From contig NZ_JAMZDZ010000001.1 in the NCBI RefSeq assembly GCF_024172085.1, positions 3,968,001 to 4,032,000 on the forward strand: a stretch of 64,000 nt of DNA, written 5' to 3'. This DNA is from Hamadaea flava (GTDB lineage Bacteria; Actinomycetota; Actinomycetes; Mycobacteriales; Micromonosporaceae). Under the pieces are notes generated by a model, which saw nothing but the letters and a program-made list of their open reading frames with translations, searched no databases and was not told the DNA's origin. Positions 2,258 to 23,097 of this stretch are shown piece after piece (positions within the stretch are counted from its first letter, which is position 1; every line of letters begins with the position of its first letter). Made by a program: the position numbers and the translations under genes.

Positions 2258-3477
2258 CCGCCCCCGCCACCACTACCCACCGCGCGGACCCGCTCGCCGC
2301 CGTCTGCACCCGCCTCGCCGACCCTTCGATCGTCGGCCCGTCGCCAGATGGACGGACCCGGCCGCAGTCGTTGGCCGGTGGCGCGGTCGGTATCGCGCTG
2401 CTACACATCGAGCGCGCCGTGTCCGGCCTCGGCGACGAAGCCACCGCCCACACCTGGATACGCGCCGCGGCCAGCGAGCCGGTCAGCATCGGCCGCAACT
2501 CCGACCCGTTCCACGGAGCCCCCGCACTGGCGTTCATGTTCCACATTGCGAGCCCGCTCGGTGGCTACCGCCGCGCCGCCAACAGCCTCGACGAGGCCAC
2601 CAGCGTCCTCACCCGGCAACGGTTGGCCGCCGCGCACGCCCGCATCGACCGCCGCGAGCCGCTTCCCATGTTCGAGTTCGACCTCGTGCACGGTCTGACC
2701 GGCCTGGGCCTGTACCACCTGCACGCCCACCCCGACCACCCGATCAGCGGCGATCTGGTGGCCTACCTTACCCGCCTCACCGAACCCCTCGGCGACAACA
2801 CCGACCGGCCGCCGTGGTGGCTGCCCTCCGGCCTCGGCGGCGTACCCCACGACGAGTTCCCCCACGGCCACGGCAACATCGGAACCGCCCACGGCATCAG
2901 CGCCGTCATCGCCCTGCTCGCCTACGCTATCCTGCACGGCCATGACACGCCCGCCGCCCGCGACGCGCTCAACCACCTATGCGACTGGACCGACCACTAC
3001 CGCCAAGACGACCCCGCCGGAACCTGGTGGCCCGGCTACGTAGCACCCGGCACCGCCCTCAAACGCCACCGGCCGTCCTGGTGCTACGGAACCCCCGGCA
3101 CCGCCCGCGCCCAGCAACTCGCCGGGCAGGCCCAACGCGACACCACCCGCCAGCAGCGCGCCGAGGAGGCGATGCTCACGGTGCTCGCCGATGAGGCCCA
3201 GCGCCAGCGGCTCTCGGAGATCGGTCTATGCCATGGCAAAGCCGGGCTGCTGCAATCCGGCTGCCGCATGGCGGCCGACAGTACCGACCCGGGCCGATCG
3301 GCCCAGCTCGCCGCCCATCTTCCCAGCCTGGCCGCCGAGCTTGCCACCCAACTCACCAGCGAAGTCTCAGCCGATCCGGAACTGATGAACGGCACCGCCG
3401 GAGCCGCGCTCGCCCTGCACACCGCCACCACCGGCAACCCGGCCACCGGCTGGGACGCCTTCCTCGCCCTGTCCTGA
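2254..3477 (+). CDS. LanC-like lanthipeptide cyclase
   Basis: This 407-residue protein has the expected LanC length and the zinc-binding signature of the family: WCYG with Cys277 and the CHG motif with Cys326-His327. A GTAHG motif upstream fits the LanC alpha/alpha toroid. LanC enzymes add cysteine thiols to dehydrated Ser/Thr to form lanthionine rings. The GTG start overlaps the LanB stop by four bases, so both enzymes are probably made from one transcript. It is followed after 13 bp by a second SpaB_C-type gene. The family is clear; catalytic activity is inferred from intact metal ligands. Confidence 0.86.
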   Translation: MTAPATTTHRADPLAAVCTRLADPSIVGPSPDGRTRPQSLAGGAVGIALLHIERAVSGLGDEATAHTWIRAAASEPVSIGRNSDPFHGAPALAFMFHIASPLGGYRRAANSLDEATSVLTRQRLAAAHARIDRREPLPMFEFDLVHGLTGLGLYHLHAHPDHPISGDLVAYLTRLTEPLGDNTDRPPWWLPSGLGGVPHDEFPHGHGNIGTAHGISAVIALLAYAILHGHDTPAARDALNHLCDWTDHYRQDDPAGTWWPGYVAPGTALKRHRPSWCYGTPGTARAQQLAGQAQRDTTRQQRAEEAMLTVLADEAQRQRLSEIGLCHGKAGLLQSGCRMAADSTDPGRSAQLAAHLPSLAAELATQLTSEVSADPELMNGTAGAALALHTATTGNPATGWDAFLALS

Positions 3478-3490
3478 CCGGCGAAACGCC

Positions 3491-4303
3491 ATGACCACAC
3501 CCGGATGGCGGCAGACCACCATCACCTTCGCCGACCCCGACACCGCCGAGCAGACCGCCGTCGACCACCTCGCGCCGATCCTGGCCGACGCCGAAGCCCG
3601 CAGCCTCATCACCGCCTGGTTCTACGTACGCAAAGGCGAATGGCGGCTGCGATACCTGCCCAGCACCAGCAACGGTCCTGCCGAGGACCATGTCAGCAGC
3701 GAGCTGCAACGGCTCATTCGGCTCGGCATCGTTCTCGGCGCCGTCGCCGGCATCTACGAGCCCGAGGTCTACGCCTTCGGCGGCCCCGACGCCATGGACA
3801 TCGCCCACCAACTCTGGCACCACGACAGCCGCCACCTCCTCGCAGGCAGCATGGCGCACCAGCGCGAGCAGTCGATCATGCTGGTCGCGGCGATGATGCG
3901 GGCGGCAGGGCTGGACTGGTATGAGCAAGGCGATGTGTGGGCACGTGTCGCCGAGCACAGGGACCCGCCGGACCCCGGCCACGTCGCGTCTCTGCAGCAC
4001 GCCACGCAGCGGCTCCTCACGGTCGACATCGTCAGCCTCACCGTCCCAGGAGCCACGATGGCGACCTGTTCGGCCCTGGTCGAGGCGTACATCGCCGCTG
4101 GTGACAGCCTGCGGCGACTCAACCAGGCCGGACGGCTCCAGCACCGCGGACTACGAGACATCCTCACCCATCACGTGATCTTCGCCTGGAACCGGCGCAG
4201 CATCCCCGGCCTGCACCAAGCAGCCATCGCTGCAGCCGCGAAGATCCTCATCTTCGGCCCCGGCCCCAACGTCGACCCTCTCACCACAGGCGGTGAAGCA
4301 TGA
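3491..4303 (+). CDS. Stand-alone thiopeptide-type (SpaB_C) bacteriocin biosynthesis protein
   Basis: The 270-residue protein matches the free-standing version of the LanB C-terminal elimination domain: an N-terminal WRQTTITFADPD strand, ITAWFYVRKGEWRLRYLP near residues 40-57, then YEPEVYAFGGPDAMDIAHQL, typical of thiopeptide-type biosynthesis proteins. Known members eliminate glutamate from glutamylated Ser/Thr in split LanB systems. Here the upstream LanB already carries a fused domain of this type, so this copy may act on other residues or assist the fused enzyme. ATG follows the LanC stop by 13 bp, and the 3' end overlaps the next gene by four bases. Confidence 0.8.
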   Translation: MTTPGWRQTTITFADPDTAEQTAVDHLAPILADAEARSLITAWFYVRKGEWRLRYLPSTSNGPAEDHVSSELQRLIRLGIVLGAVAGIYEPEVYAFGGPDAMDIAHQLWHHDSRHLLAGSMAHQREQSIMLVAAMMRAAGLDWYEQGDVWARVAEHRDPPDPGHVASLQHATQRLLTVDIVSLTVPGATMATCSALVEAYIAAGDSLRRLNQAGRLQHRGLRDILTHHVIFAWNRRSIPGLHQAAIAAAAKILIFGPGPNVDPLTTGGEA

Positions 4304-5385
4304 ATCCAGACGTCGCCCGTCGCTTTCCTCTAATCGCCCGCCCTCGCCCCGCCTGCACGCCCCTGGTCCAGCGCGTCGCCGACCTCGAACACCGTGCCGG
4401 TCTCGCCCGAGAGCAACACGACGTGGCCTCCGCGACCGCAGTCTTCAACCTCGCCGCCCTGCTCGCGTCCGACTGCGGCCTACCCGATCTCGCCCGCACC
4501 TGGTGCCACCGGCTCGCTGCCGTCGCGCTGGCCAACCGCACCGAGCCCCGACATGCCCTCGAACCCATCGTCAACCTCGCACGTCTGCGCATCCGCGCAG
4601 GCGACGGCCCCACCGCGTGGACTCTGTTGGAGACCCTCTACCAGGCAATCGCCACCCGCACCGACACCGTGATCGACGGCATCCTGATCCCGGCCGCAAA
4701 CCTCACCGAAGCACCCGCCAGCCACGCCAACGCATGTACCTGGCTATGGAGCGTCCTACTCGGCACTGGCGCCCACGCCCTCGCCACCGCCGGCCGCTGG
4801 GACGATGCAAGCCAACGCCTCGCCCAACATAACGGCGTCGGCGTGCGCATGCTCGACGGCCGACAGGTCGCCGTCATCGCCCACGCCACAGCGGGCCGTC
4901 ACCGGGAGGCGCACGCCGTGCTGAGCGCAACCCGCCCCGGCGAGGCATGGGAAAATGCTGTCACCGCGGCCATGTGGATGCATATACCGAATGACGGTCC
5001 AGACGAGGCGGCTATCGCGGCGCTAACCGCCTACCACGCGCTTGGACCTGCACAGCCAGGGCTCGCCGTCTTCCAAACCAGGCTGGGCCTCACCATCGTC
5101 GACGCCCTCGACGCCAACCATCCCGCACGCGAACCCATTGCCGCTGGCCTGATCAGGCAGGGCGTCAACGACGGCTACGCCGCCCGCGAACTACTGGGCC
5201 ACCCGGGATGCCTCAGTGCCGCCAGCAGACAGCAGGCCGATGATCTCGCCAGCCTCGCCTCCCGATGCGGCCTCGGCCAAGGAGGTGTACCCGGGACGCT
5301 GCTCGCATGCCTTTACAACGCACTCGACGTTGCCGAAGCCACAATCAAACGCTCAGGTCGGGGGCACGCCCATGGACCTGCCTAG
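4300..5385 (+). CDS. Helical-repeat (TPR-like) protein of the lanthipeptide operon
   Basis: The 361-residue protein starts with ATG inside the stop of the preceding gene (ATGA), so it belongs to the lanthipeptide operon. The sequence is almost wholly alpha-helical and alanine-rich, with repeating pairs such as FNLAALLASDCGLPDLARTW and LARLRIRAGDGPTAW that look like degenerate TPR units. No DNA-binding helix-turn-helix, catalytic motif, signal peptide or membrane segment is visible. Proteins of this kind are common beside actinobacterial lanthipeptide genes, sometimes fused to an XRE domain. A scaffold or regulatory role is a guess. Confidence 0.6.
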   Translation: MNPDVARRFPLIARPRPACTPLVQRVADLEHRAGLAREQHDVASATAVFNLAALLASDCGLPDLARTWCHRLAAVALANRTEPRHALEPIVNLARLRIRAGDGPTAWTLLETLYQAIATRTDTVIDGILIPAANLTEAPASHANACTWLWSVLLGTGAHALATAGRWDDASQRLAQHNGVGVRMLDGRQVAVIAHATAGRHREAHAVLSATRPGEAWENAVTAAMWMHIPNDGPDEAAIAALTAYHALGPAQPGLAVFQTRLGLTIVDALDANHPAREPIAAGLIRQGVNDGYAARELLGHPGCLSAASRQQADDLASLASRCGLGQGGVPGTLLACLYNALDVAEATIKRSGRGHAHGPA

Positions 5386-5454: not shown

Positions 5455-6504
5455 CTACGCGATGTCAAGCCAGCCCTGCGTCGTTACAGCCGACATCAGC
5501 TGCCGCACCTCGGGCATGGCTTGAAGTTGGGGGTACTCATCGGCAAGCTGCGTTACTGCTTCGGAGGCATCATCGCCAAACTGATATTGCAATACAGCCA
5601 CGGCCTTTACGGCTAGGAACTCATCGTGAGTCCTAATTGCCTCCTGCAAGACTTCATCGAACAGGCGGACCACATCTGGACCCCACCCCGAAGAGAGAAG
5701 TAAATAGACGTCCTCACCGACGCTTCCGCGTCGAAACATGTTTTCGCGGTCGACCAACTTCAAGAGCAGGATTGCGTCTGTAACGGTCCATCGGAATCGG
5801 CTCACAACGGCGGCCTTTGTTTTACCCGCGACAGTACGCGTCGGACTCGGCCATATGTCAGGATGGAATTGTACGCAATGGGCAAGCGCGTAAGCGGCGT
5901 CCGGAAGGACCTCAGGATGCAACTGACCTAAGGCGTACCTAAGCATCACGAGCGCTCTGTAGTCGACTTGGCCGACTGCGAAGCAATCCCATACCGCCGC
6001 GCCTTGTTTGTCGGGTGCATCTGAATACAAGCCCAACACGGAGCCTAATGGCGTTGACGCCCGACGTGCTGCCAACAGAAACGACTGCCAGCTTTCGCCA
6101 TTCAGGACGAGGCTCGCGTATATCCGCCCAGATTGGTTATCGGGAAGAGTTCTAAGCTCCTCTGTGAGGTTAATCCAGTACAGCACATCAGCAGTAGGAT
6201 CGTGGACTATGCCGAATACGGGCAGCGTCGATTCCGTCCAGAAGGCATAGTCCGCAGGGCTGTATGGTACGAACCATCCCTTAGATGACGAGTAGGAATT
6301 TCCTCCCTTAATCTGTAAAGCTATCACCTGGCCCGTTACTTCCCGCTCATCGGAGATGTCGACGTACGCATCTTTGCCATAGTCGTTGCTCTGGCTCACT
6401 TCGAGGAACACTTGGCCACGTGATTCAAAAAGCTCACGCACGCGATTAACCGCAGCCCGCTCGACGATGCGTTGATCGGTAATCTGCTTACGACCCGAGG
6501 ACAC
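5455..6504 (-). CDS. DUF4365-type PD-(D/E)xK nuclease-like protein
   Basis: The N-terminal ~150 residues match DUF4365: a helix with ERAAVNRVRELFESRG, then DYGKDAYVDI and VIALQIKGG, which supply the D...QxK core of a PD-(D/E)xK nuclease fold, followed by VLYWINLTEEL. The C-terminal 200 residues are helical with no recognised domain. The gene starts with GTG and a weak Shine-Dalgarno, 70 bp after the NurA stop on the same strand, so it is probably the last gene of the HerA/NurA module. DUF4365 occurs widely in defence islands. Nuclease activity is inferred from the fold only. Confidence 0.7.
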   Translation of the reverse strand: MSSGRKQITDQRIVERAAVNRVRELFESRGQVFLEVSQSNDYGKDAYVDISDEREVTGQVIALQIKGGNSYSSSKGWFVPYSPADYAFWTESTLPVFGIVHDPTADVLYWINLTEELRTLPDNQSGRIYASLVLNGESWQSFLLAARRASTPLGSVLGLYSDAPDKQGAAVWDCFAVGQVDYRALVMLRYALGQLHPEVLPDAAYALAHCVQFHPDIWPSPTRTVAGKTKAAVVSRFRWTVTDAILLLKLVDRENMFRRGSVGEDVYLLLSSGWGPDVVRLFDEVLQEAIRTHDEFLAVKAVAVLQYQFGDDASEAVTQLADEYPQLQAMPEVRQLMSAVTTQGWLDIA

Positions 6505-6574
6505 GTTACACCCACTCTGAGACAGTCAAATCGCCAGACGACGAACGCGATTGCCTGGCGTCTCCTCATTCGCG

Positions 6575-7984
6575 CTAGGGCGACTCGCCAGAGCTAACAC
6601 TGCGTTCCGTGAGCATTCGCAGCACCTTCTCTGCGTTGGCCAATGGATACGCCGCCCAATGGTGTGCCAGCGCCACAGGTATGAGGGCGTCATCATAAAG
6701 CCTTGTGCCGATGCCATCGAGGACATCTAGCGCTCTACTCAATGCTGGAAACCGAACGAAGTCACTGTAATCGGCCTCGCCGTAACCATATGCCAACTCG
6801 GTTTCTGGAACGACCGTGCTGACCAATAGTTGCCCGTCCGCCGAGTGGTAGAACAACTTCCGACCAAAGTAGGTTTCAGCCAGGCTGCGCACCCTGAGTC
6901 TCTTGGTCATATACACGTCATCGAGGCGCATCAGATGGCGTCGCTTCACAAATCGTCGTATGCCGTGGAAGTGCTCGACCGGGTACCCGCTCTTTGCGAC
7001 TCCGATCACGACGGGCGGCTGATGACCACGAAGCCTTGCACGTCGCATGATCTCCTGCCAACAGCCTCGGAGCCCGTGCTGAAAACGTGCTGGTTCACCG
7101 AAGAGAGCGAGGTCGCCGTCACAGATAAACGCGGTCTGTTGGAGCATGCGGGGCGACATGGCCTCAATGCCCAACGCAACGCCAATCAAAACGAGATGTT
7201 CGATGACCTGACTGGTCCGGCTTAACACTTGCTTATTGCTGTCGTCTGAATTGAATTGTTCCCAAATGCGCAAGGCGTCTGTCGGCCATACATTGGCACC
7301 GCACTCGGCACACTTACTCATAGACAGCGCCGGAATCGGGGCACCCTTATAGCCGCGAGGCGGCTCGTTCAGTGAACACTTCTTGTTGGGGCACTTCGTC
7401 AGAAGCAAATTGCCGCGCGCGGCGGCGGACGCCTCGTGTGGTCGAGCATAGCGCTGCGTTTCCAGCAGAAGTTGGAGGAGCGTTCGCTGCTGGATGACGG
7501 TGTCCGCGAATAGATCGAAGAATTCCGCACGAAAGGCTTCGTCGGGATCTTCAAAACTTTCGTGCTCCAAGAAGGAGCCCGGTAGGAATCCGGATACGAC
7601 GGAGGACTCCGTGGCATCTGCTAGCCGGGCTGGGTCGACGAACGGACCAGTCCGCTCGAGCATCTGTCGGAGGTCGATGAACACGCCGGCTATCTGCATA
7701 TAAAGCACGCGGGTCGAAGGATACCTGTCATAAGCTTCCTGGTCCTCGTGTCCGGAACCGTCTACGCAAACCACGTACTTGATCTCAGGACTATGCACCT
7801 GCCCGAGTGTGTCTGCATCAACAATCCGCTCAAGGATCATAGACTCGTCGAAGGCGTCCTCGGGCTTGTGATAACGCGCCAGCCGTTCTGCGATGATCGG
7901 ATTGGCGGACGTTGGAAGGTGACCTAGACGGGATGCCATTTCATAACGAATCGCGCCAAGTGCCGAACGAGAAGTGTACGACAT
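6575..7984 (-). CDS. NurA-like nuclease with zinc-ribbon insert
   Basis: The 469-residue protein carries the NurA domain: VVCVDGSG at residues 71-78 with Asp75 as expected metal ligand, MQIAGVFIDLRQML after it, and a C-terminal HHWAAYPLANAEKVLRML block typical of NurA. Between them lies CPNKKC...CAEC, a zinc ribbon not standard in archaeal NurA. NurA is a 5'-3' nuclease that works with the HerA translocase in DNA end processing. I chose ATG 7984 because GAAGG lies 6-7 nt upstream and it follows the HerA stop by 2 bp; a longer reading frame upstream would run far into HerA. The tight spacing indicates a HerA-NurA pair. Confidence 0.77.
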   Translation of the reverse strand: MSYTSRSALGAIRYEMASRLGHLPTSANPIIAERLARYHKPEDAFDESMILERIVDADTLGQVHSPEIKYVVCVDGSGHEDQEAYDRYPSTRVLYMQIAGVFIDLRQMLERTGPFVDPARLADATESSVVSGFLPGSFLEHESFEDPDEAFRAEFFDLFADTVIQQRTLLQLLLETQRYARPHEASAAARGNLLLTKCPNKKCSLNEPPRGYKGAPIPALSMSKCAECGANVWPTDALRIWEQFNSDDSNKQVLSRTSQVIEHLVLIGVALGIEAMSPRMLQQTAFICDGDLALFGEPARFQHGLRGCWQEIMRRARLRGHQPPVVIGVAKSGYPVEHFHGIRRFVKRRHLMRLDDVYMTKRLRVRSLAETYFGRKLFYHSADGQLLVSTVVPETELAYGYGEADYSDFVRFPALSRALDVLDGIGTRLYDDALIPVALAHHWAAYPLANAEKVLRMLTERSVSSGESP

Positions 7985-7986
7985 GT

Positions 7987-10284
7987 TCAGCCTTCGAGCT
8001 CGAACATCGGTTCGGTCTGGGGCGGGAACTTGTTCGAGTAGATCTCGTCGGGATCTGGGCAATCTTCAAAGGAGTCGACCTTTGCCACATCCGGGGCGAA
8101 GTCATTACTCCGCACGGTGGGCGGAAGTCCGCACTCCTGCCGGATGCGATTGACCATCGACAGGTCGAATTTGGCAACCTGTATGGGGAGGGTATAGGGC
8201 GACGAGTCTGTGCGGAGGCGCACGAATCCTCGGTCGTCAGCCGTTAGGATTTGATCAGTGAAGTCTGCGAAGTCATAGAATTTTGCTAGCTTGGCGACCT
8301 CAGCAGAATTGTTCATATATGCGCACACCCAATTGGCAGTGTTCGAGAGGATCGACTGGTCGACCGTCGATACTTCCTGAGTGGCGTAGATTAGCCCGAT
8401 CTTGTACTTGGCCGCCTCTCGCGCCAGCCGAACGTACGGATCGTTAGCCGTGGTTGTCTTCGCGAACTTGTCCCGGTCAAGCAGACGATGCGCTTCCTCC
8501 AGGAAGATCTGCATGGGTCGCGGCGACATTCCTTCGCGAAATCTCTTCGAGGCGTTACCCAGGATCACTGTGATGACACGCTCAGCGCAGACCTGCAATA
8601 CCTGCTCTGACCCGCGCGAGAGGTCGACGATGACCAGTCGCCCCCGAGCGAGGTCGGCGTAGATCGACGGAGCAAAGTCCGTGGTCGCATCGCCTGAGTG
8701 GTATTCGTTCAGAAATCGGAGGATCTTCCACCCGCTTGCCGAACCGGTGGGCGAGAGCATGTTCACCATGCCATCGATGGCCGGGTCTCCGTGGCCGCCG
8801 GAGGCTCGGTCCGCGACCCATAGACTGACGGCCTCTACGCTGGTTTCCTCTGCCTCTTCATCCGTCTTGGCTTTCCGCCCGCCGCGGGCCCGGCCAGCCG
8901 ACTTCGCAGCGCGAGAAGCTTCCGTGGCGATGCGCACACAAGCCTCTTCCAGTTGCGCACCGGTGAGATACAGGTACTGCCCTTGAGCGCTAACGTCGAG
9001 ACCCCGTACATCCTTCAGGAGGTCACGCGTCCCCTGGTTCACCGGTAACTGGAAGCGCCATTTGGACGGTGGGCGCAGACCAGCCTTGTGAAGGATGGCG
9101 AAGTACATCGCCCGTACTGCCAGCAGGCGCTTTTTGTCGCCCGTGTCATCGACATCGTCAGGGCTTCGAGTTGGGTCGCAGGCCAGGAAGTTGTTGATAT
9201 AGACCTTGTTCTCGCCGGCAAGGAACGAGTTGACCAGGCTCCAACACCCGTTGATCTGCTTGTCGTCAAAAAAGTTCAGGGACAAAGGGCGAATGTTGGC
9301 GGCACGTTCCTGATGTGTTGCGCCAAGCCGGTAGATCCTCACGTTGTCGCCGAGCTGCGAGAGCGCTGTTCCGTCCTGGCGATTGGCGTAAGCGTATTCA
9401 CCGGCAGGGTCGAAGATCAGCTGTCCGACCCGTGTGCCCGTTCTGTGCGCATATAGATGGACTGCGGACGCCAGAACTTTCATGGTGTTCGACTTGCCAG
9501 CGCGGGTCATGCCGAAGACTGCGGTCTTATGGGCGACGAAGTCCTTAGGGCGAACCTTCACGTCTACTTCGGTGCCTTGACCGTCGGTCTTGGCAACCCG
9601 CTCGCGCCTGCGAGCTGATGAGTACCGCAACGTGCCGATGACCATAGTTGCGTCGGTGTCCGGCATGTCAGCGTTCGGAGCATCATCCCCTTGTTGATCT
9701 CCAGGGCGCTCACCCATAGGAAGCTCGACATGATCGATAATGATCTGAAGGCTTTCTCCGTGGGGCTTGGACACAAGGTAACCGGCGGCAGCGTAAACCG
9801 CGTCCACATCCTTGCCGAATACCAGGTCACCTGACTCGTTCTCGACGAACGTACCAAGCACGCGGCAGCGGAAGGCAGCCTGCTGCATCATGGCCTGGGT
9901 CAGGTTGTCGGTAGGCGGTGCTGGGTCCTGGTTCTGCCGGTAGTGGTTAGTGATAGCACGGTCAGTGTCAGCCGCACGAAGGTGGATCAAGTCTGCCTGA
10001 TTGGGCAGCGATGTTTCGCAGATCACGCGAAGAAGGATGACGCTGCGGTCGGCCGGCGCGATCTCAGCGGACGCCTTCGGGTCGTCAAATCCCCTCGGGT
10101 ACGCCAGGAGCAGGCAGTGCTGCGGCACGCCGTGAGCACGCATCATCCACGAGTCGTTGGTCAGCACACTGGCTTCGTGATAACCCAGGTTGAAGACGCC
10201 GCCGATCTTTACTGACTGCCGCACAAGGCGGAACAGCGGCGACTCTTCGGCTGCTGCGTGTTCTCCCAGACTGAGCGACGACAT
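7987..10284 (-). CDS. HerA-like DNA translocase ATPase
   Basis: The 765-residue protein has the FtsK/HerA ATPase layout: an N-terminal barrel-like region, Walker A GMTRAGKSN at residues 258-266, DPAGEYAY after it, the LVIVDLSRG strand, and a Walker B-type strand IFLEEAHRLL near residue 590, with a sensor-like LIYATQEVSTVD. HerA forms hexamers that pump DNA and activate partner nucleases. A low-complexity insert around residues 190-215 (GDDAPNADMPD) is poorly conserved. GGAGGT lies 12 nt before the ATG. NurA follows after 2 bp and a D12 methyltransferase gene ends 121 bp upstream on the same strand. The family call is strong. Confidence 0.86.
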   Translation of the reverse strand: MSSLSLGEHAAAEESPLFRLVRQSVKIGGVFNLGYHEASVLTNDSWMMRAHGVPQHCLLLAYPRGFDDPKASAEIAPADRSVILLRVICETSLPNQADLIHLRAADTDRAITNHYRQNQDPAPPTDNLTQAMMQQAAFRCRVLGTFVENESGDLVFGKDVDAVYAAAGYLVSKPHGESLQIIIDHVELPMGERPGDQQGDDAPNADMPDTDATMVIGTLRYSSARRRERVAKTDGQGTEVDVKVRPKDFVAHKTAVFGMTRAGKSNTMKVLASAVHLYAHRTGTRVGQLIFDPAGEYAYANRQDGTALSQLGDNVRIYRLGATHQERAANIRPLSLNFFDDKQINGCWSLVNSFLAGENKVYINNFLACDPTRSPDDVDDTGDKKRLLAVRAMYFAILHKAGLRPPSKWRFQLPVNQGTRDLLKDVRGLDVSAQGQYLYLTGAQLEEACVRIATEASRAAKSAGRARGGRKAKTDEEAEETSVEAVSLWVADRASGGHGDPAIDGMVNMLSPTGSASGWKILRFLNEYHSGDATTDFAPSIYADLARGRLVIVDLSRGSEQVLQVCAERVITVILGNASKRFREGMSPRPMQIFLEEAHRLLDRDKFAKTTTANDPYVRLAREAAKYKIGLIYATQEVSTVDQSILSNTANWVCAYMNNSAEVAKLAKFYDFADFTDQILTADDRGFVRLRTDSSPYTLPIQVAKFDLSMVNRIRQECGLPPTVRSNDFAPDVAKVDSFEDCPDPDEIYSNKFPPQTEPMFELEG

Positions 10285-10405
10285 GGCGGAACCGATACCT
10301 CCGAGGGGCGGGGCTTAGGAGCTTCGATGAAGCGCAACCATGATGCAGCACGCGTAGGACACTTTGCACGCCGTCAGGAAGACGTCCAGGTTGCCTGGCG
10401 CGTCG

Positions 10406-11452
10406 CTAACGAACGGACGATCCCGCGACTACACGGTAGGACGAGGAGTCCGGAACGTCGAGGAAGTTGGTAACGAGCAGCTCGTCCCGCACTACGCGCG
10501 CCTGTTTGCGTTGGTTTTCGGCAGGCTGGCCAGCAGCGGTGTAGCGGTTCTTCACATAGATGAGGGTTCGCGTAGGGTTCGCCGGATAGAGTGAACGCGT
10601 CGTCGCGGTGTCGTCGTAGGACAAGATCCAGCGGAACGGAAGCTCCGTGGCCAACGTCTCGGCAAGTTGCTTGTGATGATCATCCTCGAAGGACCACACA
10701 TATAGAGAGGGCGCCTTCTCGACATACGGCGGATCAAGGTAGACGAGGATCTCATCCTTGTCTACTAACTTGCCAAATGCGCTTTTGAGGCGTGCGAGAC
10801 TTGTGGTCCAGTCCCCGTGCCAGACGTCAAGTAACCGGCCAGTATCGGCTAGCTCGCCGATGGCTCGGAGCCGCGTCGCGATTGCATCCTTGTTAAAACG
10901 GCAGTCGATCTTGTATGGGGAGGACTGAGCGCGACCTCCGATCGGACCAGCCCATCCATGGAGGATGCCCGAGAAGGTCGTCCTATTCATAAACAAGCAT
11001 TTGAGGCCGCGCTCTTTGACGCCGCGGGGGTTCGACATTCGCCACCAGTCCCAGCGGTCGACCGTCACCTCCTCCTCCATCATCCTGTTGATGAGCCAAC
11101 TGGTGTGGAAGGCAGCTGTGTACCAAAACGAAGAGACGAGCTCGTCTGCGTCCGCTAGGACGGCGTGTTGAACGGCCCCAGTTCCGAGCAACCGCAAAGC
11201 TGTCGATGCGCCGCCGCAGAAGGGCTCAAGCAAGAGCCGAGGCGGCGGAACATTCGCGCGCACCAACGACTCGATAATGGGTACGAGCTGCCGTTTTGCA
11301 CCGGGATACCGGAGCGGGCTCAACACAGCCTGCCTGAACAACTTCTCATCCGTTACGGCGGCTGGCTTGTTCAGGACCTCATCGGCTGGCCACGGCCGAA
11401 CCCTTTTAGGGACAGCTTGACTGCGCTCGCCTCGGACGACGTGCGCGGCCAC
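10406..11452 (-). CDS. D12-class (Dam-like) adenine-specific DNA methyltransferase
   Basis: The 348-residue protein has the alpha-group (D12) motif order: SPLRYPGAKR near residue 45, SAM-binding EPFCGGAS (FCGG at 78-81), and catalytic DPPY at residues 240-243. This class forms N6-methyladenine. The GTG start is supported by GGAGGG about 9 nt upstream. The gene sits between a PD-(D/E)xK-like/wHTH gene pair and HerA-NurA, all on the minus strand, so methylation of host DNA as a self-marking step for this module is a reasonable inference. No dedicated target specificity can be read from the sequence. Confidence 0.85.
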   Translation of the reverse strand: MAAHVVRGERSQAVPKRVRPWPADEVLNKPAAVTDEKLFRQAVLSPLRYPGAKRQLVPIIESLVRANVPPPRLLLEPFCGGASTALRLLGTGAVQHAVLADADELVSSFWYTAAFHTSWLINRMMEEEVTVDRWDWWRMSNPRGVKERGLKCLFMNRTTFSGILHGWAGPIGGRAQSSPYKIDCRFNKDAIATRLRAIGELADTGRLLDVWHGDWTTSLARLKSAFGKLVDKDEILVYLDPPYVEKAPSLYVWSFEDDHHKQLAETLATELPFRWILSYDDTATTRSLYPANPTRTLIYVKNRYTAAGQPAENQRKQARVVRDELLVTNFLDVPDSSSYRVVAGSSVR

Positions 11453-11664
11453 CCTATGTTCCCTCCATGTTGAGATCGACTGGGCTACCGTATCTGCCGC
11501 TCCTTACCGAGGTCGGGAACGACACAGATTACGGCACCCAAACAGTACGGGCGTACTTCGGCACGATCAAGACCGTGGCGGCTACTAGTCACATAGCCGC
11601 TGCTAACAGCCATGATCGCCATCGCGGCCATGACCGCCACCACCGCATGGGGCTGTCTGCCGAT

Positions 11665-12804
11665 TCACCGACCCGATTCGGTGGGCTCGGTTGAGCCGAC
11701 GGCCGACGGCTGTGCGAAGACCTGACGGACAAAGTTCCGGAACTCTGCGTCCAGGCCAGCGACCGTCACAAGGAATCCACAGACGTCGGCAAGCAGCTTG
11801 GCTGCCAGAGGATCGAACGCGTCACCGAATGCCTGCGCGGCGGTTGAGGGCTCCTTGGCGAGCTGAGCCTCGGCTGCCCACTCGGCATACCTCAGCTCGT
11901 CGCTGATGGAGTTCGGGCGACGCAAGTGCCGCGTGAGAAGTTCGAGCAACTGTGGGTACCACGGAGGTAGCACCCCATCGGTTCCGCCGATAACCGTCTG
12001 TTTGGGCGCAAGGCGCTGCAGCATCTCTGCCAGCCGCCGTTTCTCTTGCAAGGCCATCTGGCCCCCGAAGAGATACTGCTGGAGAGCGGTGTCAATGTCA
12101 GTCACATGCACGGCCCGCACGTTTCGGGCTGCATGAGCGAGGGACAGTGTGTACAGCCAAGAGCAATCCAGAAACAACGCTCGATGTACCGGATGCTTCG
12201 GGTCGAGGACCTTCGCAACCTGCTCCAAGTGCGCAACCACCTGGAGCAGGTTGCGATGTTCCTCGTACACCCAGTAGTCGAATTGCCGGTATTCGGTGAG
12301 CTTGTCAAGCTTCTTGTCTAGATTGGTGAATGCTTTAAGGGACGCCTCGACCAGTTTTTGGTCGAAAAGAATCGAAACTGGACCAGTAGCCAGTTCCAGG
12401 ACCGACGGATGAAACTCCTCAAGCCGAGCCAAATCGCCTGGCTCCAGGACAGAGATCCCAAGCCGCGCTGCGAGCTGGCGCGAAGCGGCAGTCACGCCGC
12501 CAGCCCGAACCATCCATGCATCGTCGGCGGCGAAGAAGTCCGACACGCCCCGCACCCAAAACATCCGCTCGGTCGAACCCCGCTGAGAGGTCTTGCAGTC
12601 CGAAATCACGGTGCGCAGTGCGAAGCCAGGACTGACAACGACTCCCAGAACGTCAAGGTCGGTAAAGGACTCGAAGCGCGGGGTCGCGCGGCCGGCGGCA
12701 GAGGGAATGTAGGCGCGCAGCGGCACATCGACGCGGGTAGAAAAGCCCATGCGCCACAGAAGGCGTCGAGAAGCGATCTTGAGTCCGAGGTCGTGCTCCG
12801 TCAT
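11665..12804 (-). CDS. Hypothetical protein with PD-(D/E)xK-like core
   Basis: I do not recognise the family of this 379-residue protein. Near its N-terminus it has FTDLDVLGV (Asp51) followed by VISDCKTS (Asp69, Lys71), a D-x17-DxK pattern of the PD-(D/E)xK nuclease superfamily, placed after a helix that often opens such folds. The rest is helical, with no membrane segment. The ATG overlaps the stop of the upstream winged-helix gene by four bases, so the two are translationally coupled. The context (methyltransferase, HerA, NurA downstream) suggests a nuclease or a DNA-end or modification sensor. Confidence 0.58.
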   Translation of the reverse strand: MTEHDLGLKIASRRLLWRMGFSTRVDVPLRAYIPSAAGRATPRFESFTDLDVLGVVVSPGFALRTVISDCKTSQRGSTERMFWVRGVSDFFAADDAWMVRAGGVTAASRQLAARLGISVLEPGDLARLEEFHPSVLELATGPVSILFDQKLVEASLKAFTNLDKKLDKLTEYRQFDYWVYEEHRNLLQVVAHLEQVAKVLDPKHPVHRALFLDCSWLYTLSLAHAARNVRAVHVTDIDTALQQYLFGGQMALQEKRRLAEMLQRLAPKQTVIGGTDGVLPPWYPQLLELLTRHLRRPNSISDELRYAEWAAEAQLAKEPSTAAQAFGDAFDPLAAKLLADVCGFLVTVAGLDAEFRNFVRQVFAQPSAVGSTEPTESGR

Positions 12805-14078
12805 AGTGCTGCCCTTCCCATGGCCGTAGCGATCAACGCGCTGTACTCCTTGTCGGTCAGCGTCTTTTTCTCCCGGCGACGGCTTACTGTCTGCAGTGGT
12901 GCTTGATAGGGCGAGTTAAGTGAGAGCAGACCTCGTGCCGCGTCGTCGCCGGCACGGTCCTCGATCGGCTCGCCGTAAGTCATGAGATCACGGGCAAGGC
13001 GGACCGCCTCCACGTTGTCGTCCGTGACGATCAGCTGGGGCATCACCCAGTTTCCAGACGGCACGAAGTCGACGATCTGCATGCGGAACAACAGCTGGTA
13101 CTGCCGCTGGTGCGAGCCGTGCGGTCGAAGCCTGTGTCCCCGGTCCGGGTCCAGCAGCGCAGTGAGCACACGGGCGGGATCACGGGCACTAGTCGCGCCT
13201 CCGAAATGCTCACCGCACCGAACGCAGGCGATTACGGCCAACGCTTTCTCCAACACGGCCTTACGGGCAGTGAGAAGGCTCGGGTCCGGCAGGTATGGAA
13301 GCGTGGCGAAGGGCTGGTCGAATCCCTCCGGCCGGGTTACCGACGGCGCCAAGATGAAACCGCGGCTGATGGCGTCTGCCAAAGCTGGGAAGCCCTTGTC
13401 GTCCACGGGCAAGCCCTGGTGTGACCTCACAGCAGCGAGCTCCTCGGCGATGCGACCGCTCCCGTGTTGCTCCAGGAGGGACCCGAGCAGCGCCGGGTTC
13501 TCGAAGCCGAAGAACGGCGAATAGAGGACTTCACCATCGATCAACGCAACGCCGTTGATCAGCGATGCGGCCTTGCCGATCTCGATAAGGCGAGGAACAT
13601 CGCGATGATCAAGACCGAGTTCGTTCTCCAGCTCCTCGCTCGGGACCGGCGAATGTGCAAGCCTGTCCACAACTGCCAGCATCTCCTGCTCAAGCTGGCT
13701 AGGCTGATCACTTCGCCAGGCGCCACCCAGACGTTCGTAGAGGTCCTCGTGGTACGGCACGTTCTCAGTGAAACCGAGGATCTTCTGGCCACGTCGCTGG
13801 ACGTCATCAACGAGCCCCGCACGCTCTAGCGTGTCGACGACTGCACCGAAGGCGTACGGACTGATGTCGAGCTGCTCCGCCACGATGGTCTTGAGCGCCT
13901 CGGCATCTGATACAACGTCCTGTCCCCTGACCAGTGACGCGAGGCTGGCGGCCATACCCACGGTTCGAGTGTCCGCCAGAGGCGTCAGCGTGGCACTGTT
14001 CGGATCGACGTTGCGAAGACCGTTATGAATGTCATGGCACCTGAGGCCAGCCTTGAAGTCCCCGAGAGGCCCCGTCAT
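12801..14078 (-). CDS. Hypothetical protein with winged-helix domains, first gene of the HerA/NurA module
   Basis: This 425-residue protein is not assigned to a known family. Residues about 40-110 look like a winged helix (DAEALKTIVAEQLDISPYAF then VVDTLERAGLVDDV), and residues 125-190 repeat that shape, with a helix at QEMLAVVDRLAHSPVPSEEL. A CVRC pair is present at about residue 280. I placed the start at ATG 14078 because AAGGGGAT lies about 7 nt upstream. It is the first gene of the minus-strand module and overlaps the next gene by 4 bp, so a DNA-sensing or regulatory role is plausible but unproven. Confidence 0.56.
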   Translation of the reverse strand: MTGPLGDFKAGLRCHDIHNGLRNVDPNSATLTPLADTRTVGMAASLASLVRGQDVVSDAEALKTIVAEQLDISPYAFGAVVDTLERAGLVDDVQRRGQKILGFTENVPYHEDLYERLGGAWRSDQPSQLEQEMLAVVDRLAHSPVPSEELENELGLDHRDVPRLIEIGKAASLINGVALIDGEVLYSPFFGFENPALLGSLLEQHGSGRIAEELAAVRSHQGLPVDDKGFPALADAISRGFILAPSVTRPEGFDQPFATLPYLPDPSLLTARKAVLEKALAVIACVRCGEHFGGATSARDPARVLTALLDPDRGHRLRPHGSHQRQYQLLFRMQIVDFVPSGNWVMPQLIVTDDNVEAVRLARDLMTYGEPIEDRAGDDAARGLLSLNSPYQAPLQTVSRRREKKTLTDKEYSALIATAMGRAAL

Positions 14079-14717: not shown

Positions 14718-15194
14718 TTAGGCTGCTGGACCGTGCCCCAGCGCGTGCTGGATTCGCTGCCTCAGCAGGTGTTTTCCGCCGTCCAAGCACTTGGCGTAGA
14801 TCTTATAGAGGACCTCGATGGAGCGCCCGGCCCACGCGGCGACGTCGGCCGGTGGAACGCCACCGTTGAGCCACGTCGAAACGGCGGCATGACGCAGGTC
14901 ATAGGGAGTCCCTGCGAGGGGCGACGCCTGGACCTCCGGCGTGAACACCTCGGCGCGAGCGCGACGCCACGCCTTGTTGATCGTATTGCGTGGAAGTTCC
15001 TCGCCGTTGCGTTCCCCCCGGAAGAGCAGACCGTCTGACCCGACACCGAATCGCTCAACGTGCTCGAGGAGTAGTGCGGTCAGTTCCGGAGGACAGGGCA
15101 CGGTGCGACTCTCCCCCACTGCGCGCTGCTTCAACCGCCGGTTGTCGCGATTCGTCCCGGTCGGGCTGCGTCGGATCTTCGGCCAGGCAGGCAT
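14718..15194 (-). pseudogene. Tyrosine integrase, C-terminal fragment
   Basis: Only the C-terminal catalytic half remains (about 158 residues). It shows [15 protein letters not shown], then YDLRHAAVSTWL supplying the HxxR-like Arg box, and the nucleophile region VLYKIYAKCLDG. In this actinobacterial integrase family the motif WAGHS normally precedes the nucleophile; here it reads WAGRS, so a catalytic-site His is lost. The N-terminal DNA-binding part is missing because the reading frame is joined near 15180-15195 to an ISL3 transposase remnant. The fragment ends just before a terminator and the left att-like repeat, the usual position of an integrase in an integrative element. Confidence 0.75.
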
Positions 15195-15941
15195 GGTGGC
15201 GGGCGACGGTCTTCTCCAGGTGGTCGCCGAGGTTGCGCCACAGATGCCAGCGGTCAGCGACTTCGATCGCGGTCGGAGCGGCGGCGTGCACTGCTTCGGC
15301 GTAAACGCCGGCCCGGTCGCGGCAGACGACCTGGACCTCGGGATGCTCGGCCAGCCATGCTGCGAGGGTGGCCGCTTGCCGGTCGGGTAGTAGGTCGATC
15401 GGCCGGTGGGTGGCCATGTCGATCAGGATCGTGCCGTAGACACGGCCGCGGCGTAGCGCGAAGTCGTCGACGCCCAGCGTCGTGACGGCAACCGCTGCCG
15501 GGTCGGGCAGGGCGCGGACCAGGCGCAGCATGCTGCTACGGCTGACGTGCAGGTTCAGCTGCCGACACAGGCGGGCGGCTGCCCGCCCTGCCAGAGCCAG
15601 ACCGATCTGTTCCAGCACATCACGCAGCGGTGGACAGCGTCGCGCGCATCGGTCGGTGAGGCCGCTGATCTGCTCGGCGAACCGGCGCACGGGACAATCG
15701 GCCTGCTGGCAGACGAACAACCGGACCGTCAGTTGCACCACGACCTGCCGTCCGCCCGTGGTCAGTTCGGCAACGTCACGCCGATACCGGCCATGCCCCC
15801 GCCTCGACGAATATCCACATCCCGGGCAGGCAGCAGTCGGCGTCCACGCTCGGGCACGGATCCGCACCTCGCAGCCAGTCTGGCTGACGACGTCCACAGC
15901 CAGCCCGGCCAGGTGAGGAGCAATACGTCGACGACGATCAT
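15180..15941 (-). pseudogene. ISL3-family transposase, N-terminal remnant
   Basis: The frame encodes an ISL3 zinc-finger region (CPGCG ... CQQADCP) followed by the start of the DDE domain with [13 protein letters not shown] and [17 protein letters not shown]. The last ~150 residues of a normal transposase are missing; the DNA continues as integrase sequence from about 15180. The 5' end is also damaged: the family's N-terminal [11 protein letters not shown] is in one frame, while the likely start (ATG 15941, then IVVDVLL) is in another, separated by what looks like loss of one C in CTCCTCAC. A GTG at 15897 opens the rest. No clear terminal inverted repeats were found. Confidence 0.75.
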
Positions 15942-16335: not shown

Positions 16336-17235
16336 GTGACTATCCCTGTTGGGCGCTCGTCACAGCCTCATGATCTCGCTGCTGCGATCTTCACCGCACT
16401 GGCTGAAGAATTCCTGTACGCCACCCAAGCGCCACGGCCATTTTACCTTCGGGACAAGCAAAACACCCAGTCGGACCCCTTCGATGAACTGGTGAGCGAC
16501 GTGCTGAGCCGCAGACTCCCCCAAGGGATCTTGGTGATTACGTCAGGCAAGCCCCTGGTAAGTCCCGACCTAGTTGTGGCTCGTCCGGAAGAGACTCGCC
16601 TCCTCATTGCGGGTGGCACCGACCTTGACGCTCGCCGCATCGTGGCGGTCGAGGTGAAGAAGGTCAACTCCGACGCCTCGGGACGAGCAGCGCGGAGTAC
16701 TGGAATCGACTACAACTCGACTCCGCCCGCCGCCACGGTGAAAGTCGAATCTGCGGCCGGAAACCTGCTGCGCGTACCGGCCTTCTACCTGTTCGTTGTG
16801 CTTTTGCCTCATGGCGAGGACCAGGTCGTACAGACCTTGGCGCTCGTAACTGGATCCGCGCTGAACCAGGACATTCAGCTGTACGACGATGCGACAGGCG
16901 TCCGCCAGAAGAGCATTGGCTTGGGAACCTTTGGGGACGGGCTGGACAGGCAACGCCCAATGTTCGTCTTCGCAAACCCCCTCGGCTGGCCGTGGCTGAC
17001 GGGGGAGGCCACGCTGCTGCATGACCGTTCTGACCTTGCAGAGGAGCAGAACCTCGTGCGCGTTCGAGAGGTCGAACGGACGGCGAAGGATGGCACTGTG
17101 CACACGTTCTGGTGCTACAGGCTACGCCGCGGCGTCCCGGATATCACGGGGCCCAAGGTCAGCGAGCCCTTCCCCACCCCGGCAAACCGGAAGACAGAGA
17201 CAACGCCTCGGGGGCGGTTCCAGGTCAAGCTTTGA
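16336..17235 (+). CDS. PD-(D/E)xK nuclease, probable restriction endonuclease
   Basis: This 299-residue protein has a textbook PD-(D/E)xK core: SPDLVV with Pro77-Asp78, then RRIVAVEVKKV with Glu106-x-Lys108, after an N-terminal helix containing DPFDELVSDVLSRRL. I chose GTG 16336 because AAAGGG lies 5 nt upstream; the longer upstream reading is not protein-like. Its 3' end overlaps by 11 bp the 3' end of a convergent, broken methyltransferase gene, so the pair looks like an R-M system whose methyltransferase has decayed. The recognition sequence is unknown, and function as a nuclease is inferred from the motif. Confidence 0.72.
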   Translation: MTIPVGRSSQPHDLAAAIFTALAEEFLYATQAPRPFYLRDKQNTQSDPFDELVSDVLSRRLPQGILVITSGKPLVSPDLVVARPEETRLLIAGGTDLDARRIVAVEVKKVNSDASGRAARSTGIDYNSTPPAATVKVESAAGNLLRVPAFYLFVVLLPHGEDQVVQTLALVTGSALNQDIQLYDDATGVRQKSIGLGTFGDGLDRQRPMFVFANPLGWPWLTGEATLLHDRSDLAEEQNLVRVREVERTAKDGTVHTFWCYRLRRGVPDITGPKVSEPFPTPANRKTETTPRGRFQVKL

Positions 17236-19291
17236 GCTTTTGAGAAGATACGGCGAACTCAGCGCACACACGGTCTGCCGCCACCCCAGCCTCGGCAAGG
17301 AGGTCGTCAAGAGAACGGTCGCAGGTCGGATCAGTGTAGGAGGCGACAACTGCCCCGCGCACAACCGATTGAATGTCGCTCCAGCCAACCGCTACACCGG
17401 CGTCCCGGCACTCGCGTAACTCCGTGACGACCCGATCGACGCTTGGACGCACGCCACCCGAGGTCTTGCGGCAGACGATCACGGCATCGAGGTTGGATGG
17501 ATCGCTAGCGCCGGATTTGGGGGTTGCCACGCTCAATTCGCCCTTAACTGGTTGAACGGCGGTGATCACGAATCCGGCATTACGCAGTGCGGTTACTAAC
17601 GCGGACCATCCGGCCGCACGGGCCTGATGGAAGGTGAAGGCGAGGATTCCGTCTTCCTTCAGGACACGAGCACACTCTTGCCATACATCCTCGATCGCCT
17701 TGGCGAATTCGTCCGAATCGGCCGACTGCACCTCGCCCTCTGCTCGGGTAGTGCTCAGCTCAGTTGGGTAGCCCTCGAAGGGCCGCACGCCGCGCAGCCA
17801 CGCATGGAAGGAGTCAGCAAGTTCCGAGTAGTGCACGTTGTCAAGGTACGGAGGGTCATTCACCACCAGGTCGATAGCGGCGTCGGGCAGATCGAGGTGC
17901 GCCGATGACTTGCCCACGACCAAGGACGAGTTCGGCTGCCGGGTGAACTCTGACCACTGCTGCACGACAGGTGCATTCAGCGTCATGGAAATGCCGAACA
18001 CACGCTCGGCGCCGACCAGGTCGTGTGGTGATTCCTTGTACTCAAGCACTCGCAGCAGGCGGCTCTTGAAAAGTGTCGAAAACGAGCCAGAGGAGGCGAT
18101 GGTTCCCCAGGGATGCGCCTCCAAAGGCGTCCTTTCAGGCTTCAATATATGGTGAGAGAACACGTGCCGCACCGCTCCAGTTCCCTCGCCCTTGTATGAT
18201 CAGAAGAGGTTGTTGAACTCCAGAACACCGGAGAATAGAGCGGCAAGCGCTTCACGCTCTGGGCTGATGGGCAGGTCCCGAACTGCAGCACCAAGCAGGC
18301 CGAGGCTATACAGCTGCCGCGCGTTAAAAAACTGTCGCCACTCCCGATAGCCCCATGACAATGCCTGGCGCGTGTTGTATCCGGAGTCAAGGCGGCCACA
18401 GGGCATGACGATCTTGTCCGCATTCTCGGTCAGAAGCTGCTCGGCTCGGCTATACAACTGCTCGTCGAATTCGCCAATGGGATCGTAACGGCGTCCGCCG
18501 TCGAGAGTGAGGACAAGCTTTGCGTACATGCGTTGCCTTGGCGGCTGCCCGCCGAGCGCATCGATGATTTTGGTCCGATGCCCTGCGGAGCAGGTCATGG
18601 TTGCTCCTGCGACTGGCCCATCGAATGACCCCGACCATCGACAATCGTGGCAGGTGAAGCGTGTGTCCGCGGAAAGGTCGACGGCGACTACCGCGTGACA
18701 CTGAGGGCACGTTGCCTGCGCCGCCGGATAACGCTTCGGATATGCATGCTGAGCGAATATGTAACGAGAAAAGAGCTCGATTGGTGGCGCGCCTCCTGGA
18801 CACAACGGGCAAGCCACGGTCGATACCCAGAGGTAGTAAAGGACGTGCTCCCCGTCCTTCGTCATATGAAGCGAGTCAATCTCTGCCTTGACGCGACTTT
18901 CGACGTCTTTAAAAGCTTCGGCGAGTGCTTCGTGATCCCACTCTGCCAATGCCTGACGCTGAACGAGAGTTGCCACCGGATTGATATCGTAGCCGATAAC
19001 TCGGCAACCCATTTTCGCAGCCTCGACCAAGGTGGCCCCGGATCCTGCAAATGGGTCCAATACGACCACATCCGGCCGATGATTGAGCGACCCGTAGGCA
19101 GCCACCGCATCGTCGCGCGAGTCAGCGAGGGCGGAAGCGAGGATGCCTCGAAAGACACTACCCAGACGCTATGCCCACCTATTGTGCGTGTGGCTCGCCG
19201 GCCGATGCACCTCCTTGCGCCACGACTCTCGTTCTGCGGCGGCAGAGACAAACCCGGCCGGGAACCCTACCTCAAGTGCCGTCGCCTTCAC
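17225..19291 (-). pseudogene. Zinc-ribbon DNA methyltransferase, copy A, broken by two in-frame stops
   Basis: Read from GTG 19291, one continuous frame of 688 codons matches the intact methyltransferase at 23849-26011 along its length, but contains TAG at 19169-19171 (where the paralogue has Lys, WWAKRLGSVFRG) and TGA at 18200-18202 (between LEFNNLF and KGEGTGAVRH). The frame does not shift at either stop, so these are point nonsense changes. SAM motif DPFAGSG, catalytic DPPY (NDPPYLDNVHY), and CxxC/CxxGH zinc-ribbon pairs are all still present. The gene faces the nuclease at 16336-17235 and overlaps its end by 11 bp. Stop-codon readthrough or assembly error are alternatives. Confidence 0.75.
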
Positions 19292-23055: not shown

Positions 23056-23097
23056 TTGAGTACTGTCGAGCAGGTCTTGAGTACTGTCGAGCAGGTC
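23056..23097 (+). repeat. 21-bp tandem duplication at the nuclease start codon
   Basis: TTGAGTACTGTCGAGCAGGT plus a final C occurs twice without any mismatch or gap (23056-23076, 23077-23097). Each copy begins with an in-frame TTG that can act as a start codon and encodes LSTVEQV, so the duplication changes the N-terminus by seven residues but not the frame. Confidence 0.9.

Follow-up and report, generated by a model that had tools for sequence, protein, structure and literature searches.

A methyltransferase-linked HerA-NurA gene set in a low-GC island of Hamadaea flava: a candidate restriction-like system among adjacent defence-type units

TdpAB, a nuclease of the HerA/NurA type from thermophiles, is reportedly an antiphage enzyme gated by DNA phosphorothioates and accompanied by TdpC, which we take to be a DndC-like phosphorothioation enzyme. 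Archaeal and Deinococcus HerA-NurA pairs are studied as DNA end-resection enzymes. For the Thermococcus kodakarensis pair a 2026 report (PMC12977600) states that both strands of double-stranded DNA are degraded, that NurA lacks endonuclease activity on circular double-stranded DNA and that an antiviral defence role is possible, and it names Sir2-HerA and HerA-DUF4297 as two-gene HerA defence systems. PD-lambda-5 is described as a compacted prophage version of a combined restriction-modification and abortive infection (RM+Abi) system (PMC9519451), and in HerA/FtsK capture systems and BRC the HerA translocase is presumed to deliver invader DNA to a nuclease, in some cases together with base modification (PMC10853773, PMC12839542). 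Here we describe six genes at positions 5455–14078 of a 64,000-bp stretch of the Hamadaea flava genome (the window; contig NZ_JAMZDZ010000001.1, positions 3,968,001 to 4,032,000), among them genes for a D12-class DNA methyltransferase, a HerA-type translocase and a NurA-family nuclease.

All six open reading frames (ORFs) lie on the minus strand without internal stops, and encode in order a winged-helix (wHTH) protein, a PD-(D/E)xK-like protein, the D12 methyltransferase, HerA, NurA and a DUF4365 protein; the wHTH stop overlaps the PD-(D/E)xK start by 4 bp (12801–12804), and the HerA gene ends at 7987 with the NurA ATG at 7984, a spacing of 2 bp. The original prediction had described this arrangement correctly, as the ORF coordinates confirm, and had suggested that all six genes could form a modification-guided translocase-nuclease system. 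That suggestion is supported for D12, HerA and NurA, whose linkage is recurrent, but not for the six-gene module. We consider it likely that the cluster comprises two or three adjacent defence-type units, and that its core of methyltransferase, HerA and NurA is restriction-like, with the methyltransferase marking self DNA and HerA-NurA degrading unmarked DNA.

Linkage of methyltransferase and nuclease genes across genomes is the feature of restriction-modification that was tested here. Twenty-four HerA-NurA loci were collected (numbered L014 onwards, plus the window), of which 22 could be assessed for an adjacent methyltransferase; a contig that ends inside HerA (L048) and a NurA gene without HerA within 16 kb (L050) were left out of the tally. 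A methyltransferase gene is adjacent in 19 of the 22, of the D12 class in 16 (the window, L014–L017, L045–L047, L058, L059, L068 and L076–L080) and of the N6_N4 type in three (L022 on a plasmid of the haloarchaeon Halorarius, L024 in Deferribacter, and L049). L049 was ruled out as a locus lacking a methyltransferase: one of the N6_N4 type abuts its HerA gene (profile E-value 1.3e-81). The linked loci thus extend from a haloarchaeal plasmid and Deferribacter to Bacillota (L058, L059) and Actinomycetota, and the genes are co-inherited through four D12 arrangements, two methyltransferase classes and several phyla, with D12 placed upstream (the window, L014–L017, L058), downstream (L045–L047, L068, L077–L079), convergently (L059, L076) or divergently (L080). 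One of these loci, L016, is a 7-kb contig from a Clostridia metagenome-assembled genome and may be misbinned. Six loci (L068, L076–L080) were fetched once the pattern had been noted, with only HerA or only NurA as the query, and all of them carry D12. Conversely, among 58 plasmid records with D12 homologues three neighbourhoods were opened and none of the three has a HerA or NurA match, and D12 alone is therefore not diagnostic.

The set is sporadic, with NurA relatives in 7 of 396, 3 of 199 and 8 of 394 genomes (~1–2%; the genome of the window or of the search centre is itself included in every count). A HerA gene was found in none of three same-genus relatives and in two of the 41 genomes of that search, counting the window's own, and a NurA profile scan of viral contigs returned no relative. 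These data bear on an alternative in which HerA-NurA serves in end resection or DNA repair and the methyltransferase is an orphan or hitch-hiker. The role ascribed to the archaeal and Deinococcus enzymes, which share the two-protein motor-nuclease architecture, speaks for such a function, as do cyanobacterial members that have no methyltransferase; however, the window set differs from those pairs in its linked methyltransferase and sporadic distribution, adjacency in 19 of 22 loci is kept across phyla with swapped methyltransferases, and presence in ~1–2% of sampled genomes, with HerA missing from all three congeners, fits housekeeping repair poorly. We regard a repair pair as unlikely.

The window HerA protein (7987–10284, minus strand; 765 aa) is a HerA/FtsK-superfamily DNA translocase (Pfam HerA/DUF87, 2.8e-16) with Walker A GMTRAGKS, Walker B IFLEEAH and sensor ATQE motifs, and both Walker motifs and the sensor glutamine are kept in all 14 HerA proteins examined. 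A HerA profile searched against PDB sequences places TdpA (8wet) at the top of seven HerA-type matches (5.7e-15). NurA (6575–7984, minus strand; 469 aa) has no direct Pfam match; its assignment is supported by one relative, by invariant residues and by an AlphaFold2 model. Among its relatives the Pfam NurA family is matched above cut-off by L023 (4e-5), below cut-off by L024 and L045, and not at all by L022. D75-G-S, D289, K331 and C198/C225/C228 are invariant in 16 homologues. The protein carries an inserted CxxC zinc-ribbon-like segment, a putative difference from archaeal and Deinococcus NurA. When the model (mean predicted local distance difference test score, pLDDT, 73.9) was compared with solved structures by Foldseek, the TdpAB-DNA complex 8wfd ranked first through its chain G, presumably TdpB (E 7.3e-5, probability 1.00), followed by archaeal and bacterial NurA proteins including those of Thermococcus, Deinococcus and Sulfolobus. 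By sequence alone a NurA profile finds no NurA in the PDB, only one unrelated chain at E 0.83. Identities of HerA and of NurA to their counterparts run in parallel over the 16 D12 loci (r 0.98), and we conclude that the two constitute one evolutionary unit, an apparently inseparable machine. In the Deferribacter locus the HerA gene is interrupted by an IS200/IS605 element with tnpA and TnpB (L024, 3991–7789).

Comparison with TdpAB starts from two likenesses between the proteins, TdpA being the closest solved sequence relative of the window HerA and a TdpAB chain the best match of the NurA model, and a third in organization, as a DNA-modifying enzyme adjoins the motor-nuclease pair in both. 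In contrast, the modifier here acts on bases, as a methyltransferase of the D12 or N6_N4 type, and is exchanged between backbones; it is not a phosphorothioation enzyme. None of the 13 island proteins scanned has a PAPS-reductase/DndC-type Pfam match, and because the phosphorothioation gene is missing among them the set is not a member of TdpAB-TdpC. It is best read as a TdpAB-like variant, a base-methylation counterpart in which modification would gate HerA-NurA.

The D12 enzyme (10406–11452, minus strand; 348 aa, GTG start; Pfam MethyltransfD12, 2.4e-12) is an adenine methyltransferase by class, with EPFCGGA and DPPY motifs. Its identity between loci follows that of HerA/NurA loosely (r 0.44 over 16 loci). 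The clearest case of exchange is L076 against L077, which are 85% identical in HerA and 77% in NurA but 33% in D12 and differ in D12 arrangement; the D12 enzyme of L076 clusters with its Bacillota counterparts (100/100), at a point where long branches meet. L046 and L047 show the reverse pattern, with D12 66% identical, HerA 36% and NurA 32%. In tree tests on ten loci the D12-tree grouping is rejected by the HerA+NurA data (p-AU, the P value of the approximately unbiased test, 2.9e-49), whereas D12 rejects the HerA+NurA grouping, in which the five window-type loci form a single clade, no more strongly than at p-AU 0.018 with 10 loci and 0.017 with 16; the groups tested were picked after the identities had been seen, and L046, L058, L059, L076 and L080 lie where long branches come together. 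The mismatch of identities and trees, together with the change of methyltransferase class in three loci, indicates that motor and nuclease are one unit and the marking enzyme is exchangeable, and we conclude that the methyltransferase is, as far as these comparisons go, a replaceable cassette on a HerA-NurA backbone.

The match of D12 to the PADLOC PD-Lambda-5_B model (1.4e-63) raises the question of a PD-lambda-5-like abortive system, in which the methyltransferase would act as a sensor, of infection or of modified phage DNA, and the cell would die through chromosome degradation by HerA-NurA. That D12 lies so close to this component, and that PD-lambda-5 is itself characterized as an RM+Abi derivative (PMC9519451), are in its favour. 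A PD-Lambda-5_A match is absent from the ten proteins scanned, however, with HerA and NurA in its place, and exchange and class change are more readily expected of an enzyme that marks DNA than of a specific sensor. An abortive mechanism of this kind is, in our view, improbable.

Under the preferred restriction-like reading, the D12 enzyme would methylate adenine at a short site on host DNA, and a HerA hexamer would thread double-stranded DNA into a dimer of NurA for degradation of both strands. HerA would probably load at free ends, for example on phage DNA that has just been injected, and the methyl mark would stop or disfavour translocation or cleavage, so sparing self DNA, much as phosphorothioates are said to act in TdpAB. 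The sporadic distribution, the low-GC island in which the genes lie, the presence of a Type I restriction-modification system and a GajB-like helicase beside L058, and the activity and proposed defence role of the T. kodakarensis pair speak for this reading, which would include an antiphage role.

In classical Type II systems both partners must recognize the same site, and swapping the methyltransferase for one of another specificity is harmful. Exchange in the present set implies one of two things: the nuclease responds to the mark and not to the site, or the methyltransferases have a common site. A D12 segment, NR..SG...GGxxQ...CRF, is 0.55–0.80 identical to the window in nine other D12 loci, compared with 0.26–0.57 for the rest of the enzyme; three controls stand at 0.34, 0.37 and 0.55. 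It could reflect a shared target site or may simply be conserved family-wide, and we claim no target; the conserved loop leans weakly towards the common-site option.

A broader and more tentative idea, which we hold to be possible but on balance doubtful, is that these loci represent a family of HerA-NurA nucleases, spanning domains of life, that are gated by base methylation. Methylation of adenine or another base would tell a motor that degrades processively from DNA ends to stop on self DNA, in the manner of a Chi site defined by methyl groups. Methyltransferases would be freely exchanged because the motor-nuclease reads the mark and not the enzyme. If this is true, modification gating of HerA-NurA is not bound to phosphorothioate chemistry and its logic is common to backbone and base marks; unlike classical Type II pairs, the methyltransferase could be replaced without change of the nuclease; and naturally swapped pairs such as L076 and L077 would make reading of the methyl mark by a translocase directly testable.

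Several observations weigh against the preferred reading. Three loci, all on cyanobacterial plasmids (L023, L031 and L081), have HerA-NurA without an adjacent methyltransferase of the D12 or N6_N4 type, and because of these HerA-NurA can act otherwise than with such an enzyme. The rows of the NurA profile comprise eight D12 loci and one N6_N4 locus among 11, and the sample thus leans to the methyltransferase-linked branch. As for exchange, over ten loci D12 identity correlates with that of HerA and NurA at r 0.58 and 0.61, values reached in 3 and 2 of 5000 permutations, such that the link of D12 to HerA-NurA appears loose, not absent, and the HerA+NurA data from those ten loci do not reject L045, L046 and L047 as one clade (p-AU 0.225). 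The alignment of the NurA model with TdpB is gapped and its TM-score low (0.33/0.42), and the match to TdpAB chain G accordingly indicates the family, not details.

Further defence-type genes adjoin the set in other genomes. In Micromonospora a DUF3644/PDC-S19 candidate defence gene lies next to D12-HerA-NurA (L014, 7154–8212), and in a Bacillota genome its neighbours encode a Type I methyltransferase, a PD-(D/E)xK nuclease and a helicase of the UvrD/GajB kind (L058, 9570–16558). A 1122-aa STAND-type protein is encoded near HerA-NurA-D12 in L045 (13124–16492), with a below-cut-off match to nSTAND_NTPase5 (1.1e-7) and a start that is SIR2-like by eye.

Searches with the component models of PADLOC 2.0.0 matched the six window proteins to generic HerA, MTase_II, mad8, PD-Lambda-5_B, orphan-methyltransferase and Aga nuclease models, gave no hit for the NurA, wHTH or PD-(D/E)xK proteins, and produced no hit that names a methyltransferase-HerA-NurA system; the check suggested earlier with defence-system models thus yields matches at the level of components. 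Among these hits the hallmark proteins that we took for BREX, DISARM, Dnd and Ssp (PglZ, BrxC, DrmABC, DndBCDE and SspBCD) are absent, and no SIR2 or DUF4297 Pfam match occurs in the six proteins. As in Sir2-HerA and HerA-DUF4297, a HerA ATPase is coupled with a partner effector, but the partner here is NurA and a methyltransferase is added. The window HerA resembles MADS in matching the mad8 ATPase model (8.4e-15), although the best generic HerA model scores better (3.6e-20) and none of the six proteins hits another mad protein. Unlike the HerA/FtsK capture systems and BRC, the six window proteins include no ORC/Cdc6 or PglZ match, and NurA does not occur in the main text of PMC10853773 or PMC12839542. 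Among the literature matches listed, with subscription papers and preprints outside the scope, no title or abstract start describes a methyltransferase-HerA-NurA defence system.

The first two genes of the cluster have a different distribution. The wHTH protein (12801–14078, minus strand; 425 aa) has weak domain matches (MarR_2 at 0.054, and NmtR, Rrf2 and MarR chains at 0.005–0.026), and its partner (11665–12804, minus strand; 379 aa) is a PD-(D/E)xK-type nuclease by motif and model. The motif is D-x-D ... (D/E)-C-K, with D49, D51, C70 and K71 invariant in eight rows; in the wider set the active-site K71 is replaced by T in one row, L051. The model (pLDDT 82.6) matches the restriction-like nucleases AF1548, Cdn1, VC1899, Can2 and Cap4 (best-chain Foldseek probability 0.87–1.00), none of them under E 0.001 and the best at 0.025. 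The pair occurs in 12 other loci, none with HerA-NurA (L018, L019, L021, L025, L027–L030 and L051–L054), in Actinomycetota, Priestia, Roseomonas and Komagataeibacter, and is conserved on plasmids of Streptomyces, Mycolicibacterium and the latter three genera. In the divergent L021, profiles that had not included this locus detect both partners (1e-16 and 4.8e-12), and two members are unpaired, a wHTH gene without partner (L026) and a partial PD-(D/E)xK gene without wHTH (L020).

That the six genes belong to a single defence system, the wHTH and two PD-(D/E)xK-like proteins serving as its sensor and effectors, is suggested by their common direction, short gaps and single low-GC island, and by a methyltransferase-like gene immediately downstream of the pair in two of the 12 other loci (L051 and L019), as D12 is here. 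The comparative data argue otherwise. A tblastn search of the six proteins against eight relatives found only D12, HerA and NurA in L014–L017, only wHTH and PD-(D/E)xK in L018 and L019, and PD-(D/E)xK in L020 and L021. A uniform scan of the HerA-NurA loci other than the window, 23 in number, detected neither wHTH nor PD-(D/E)xK in any of them, and the 14 other wHTH/PD-(D/E)xK loci likewise lack HerA, NurA and D12, some of the scanned loci being short (L016 7 kb, L048 4 kb, L080 11 kb). Among 396 genomes NurA is present in seven and wHTH in six, and the window's genome alone has both; wHTH is also absent from the whole records of nine methyltransferase-HerA-NurA carriers (seven genomes and two plasmid records), and NurA from eight genomes carrying the pair or a fragment of it, in searches that had no positive control of their own, the NurA profile and a related wHTH profile having recovered the window's genome elsewhere. 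An obligate six-gene set is refuted by these locus scans and whole-genome searches, and a single system of any form is highly improbable. The original prediction had counted the wHTH and PD-(D/E)xK genes as module members and had itself named absence of linkage in other genomes as the finding to set against it; absence is what was found, and the two genes are evidently a separate mobile two-gene unit, a neighbour of methyltransferase-HerA-NurA. Counting the window's D12, a methyltransferase adjoins the pair in three of 13 cases, of the N6_N4 type in L051 (5484–7939; Pfam 7.9e-42) and, by eye, of the C5 type in L019 (3061–5671), which may hint at a link with restriction-modification loci.

The DUF4365-domain protein (5455–6504, minus strand; 349 aa; Pfam DUF4365, 2.1e-18), which matches the PADLOC Aga nuclease model, was likewise predicted to belong to the module, a placement we abandon: it has no tblastn match (E 0.01) in 37 loci (the 23 other HerA-NurA and 14 wHTH/PD-(D/E)xK loci) and is seemingly a third, independent neighbour. 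Its nearest plasmid homologue is on a conjugative Arthrobacter plasmid, in a 13-kb stretch that shows no HerA or NurA annotation.

The six ORFs sit at one end of a low-GC island of ~5.4–26.2 kb. In 2-kb blocks GC content is 0.55–0.62 from 6 to 26 kb, except for one block of 0.665 that contains transposase-like remnants, compared with 0.66–0.73 beyond 26 kb, and from this contrast the region looks like a foreign island. It is flanked by a lanthipeptide-type gene set with dehydratase domains on one side, where a lantibiotic dehydratase gene (Pfam Lant_dehydr_N, 1.3e-110) and three more plus-strand ORFs adjoin it (2–5385), and by high-GC chromosome on the other. Upstream of the wHTH gene, integrase/transposase-like remnants recognized by eye (14718–15897, minus strand) suggest a possible route of island assembly. 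Farther on, adjacent ORFs of 315 and 301 aa (17225–19105, minus strand) correspond to the C-terminal and N-terminal portions of antiphage methyltransferases of the DUF1156 type and are probably a single gene, now split. A GmrSD_N/NsnA-like protein (PADLOC NsnA, 8.4e-57) is followed directly by a HEPN protein of the RiboL-PSP/MAE_28990 type (19650–22094, plus strand). A 266-aa ORF without Pfam or PADLOC match (23056–23856) lies beside a gene for a 720-aa methyltransferase akin to the PglX, HmaB and DUF1156 models (23849–26011, plus strand), also within the low-GC island.

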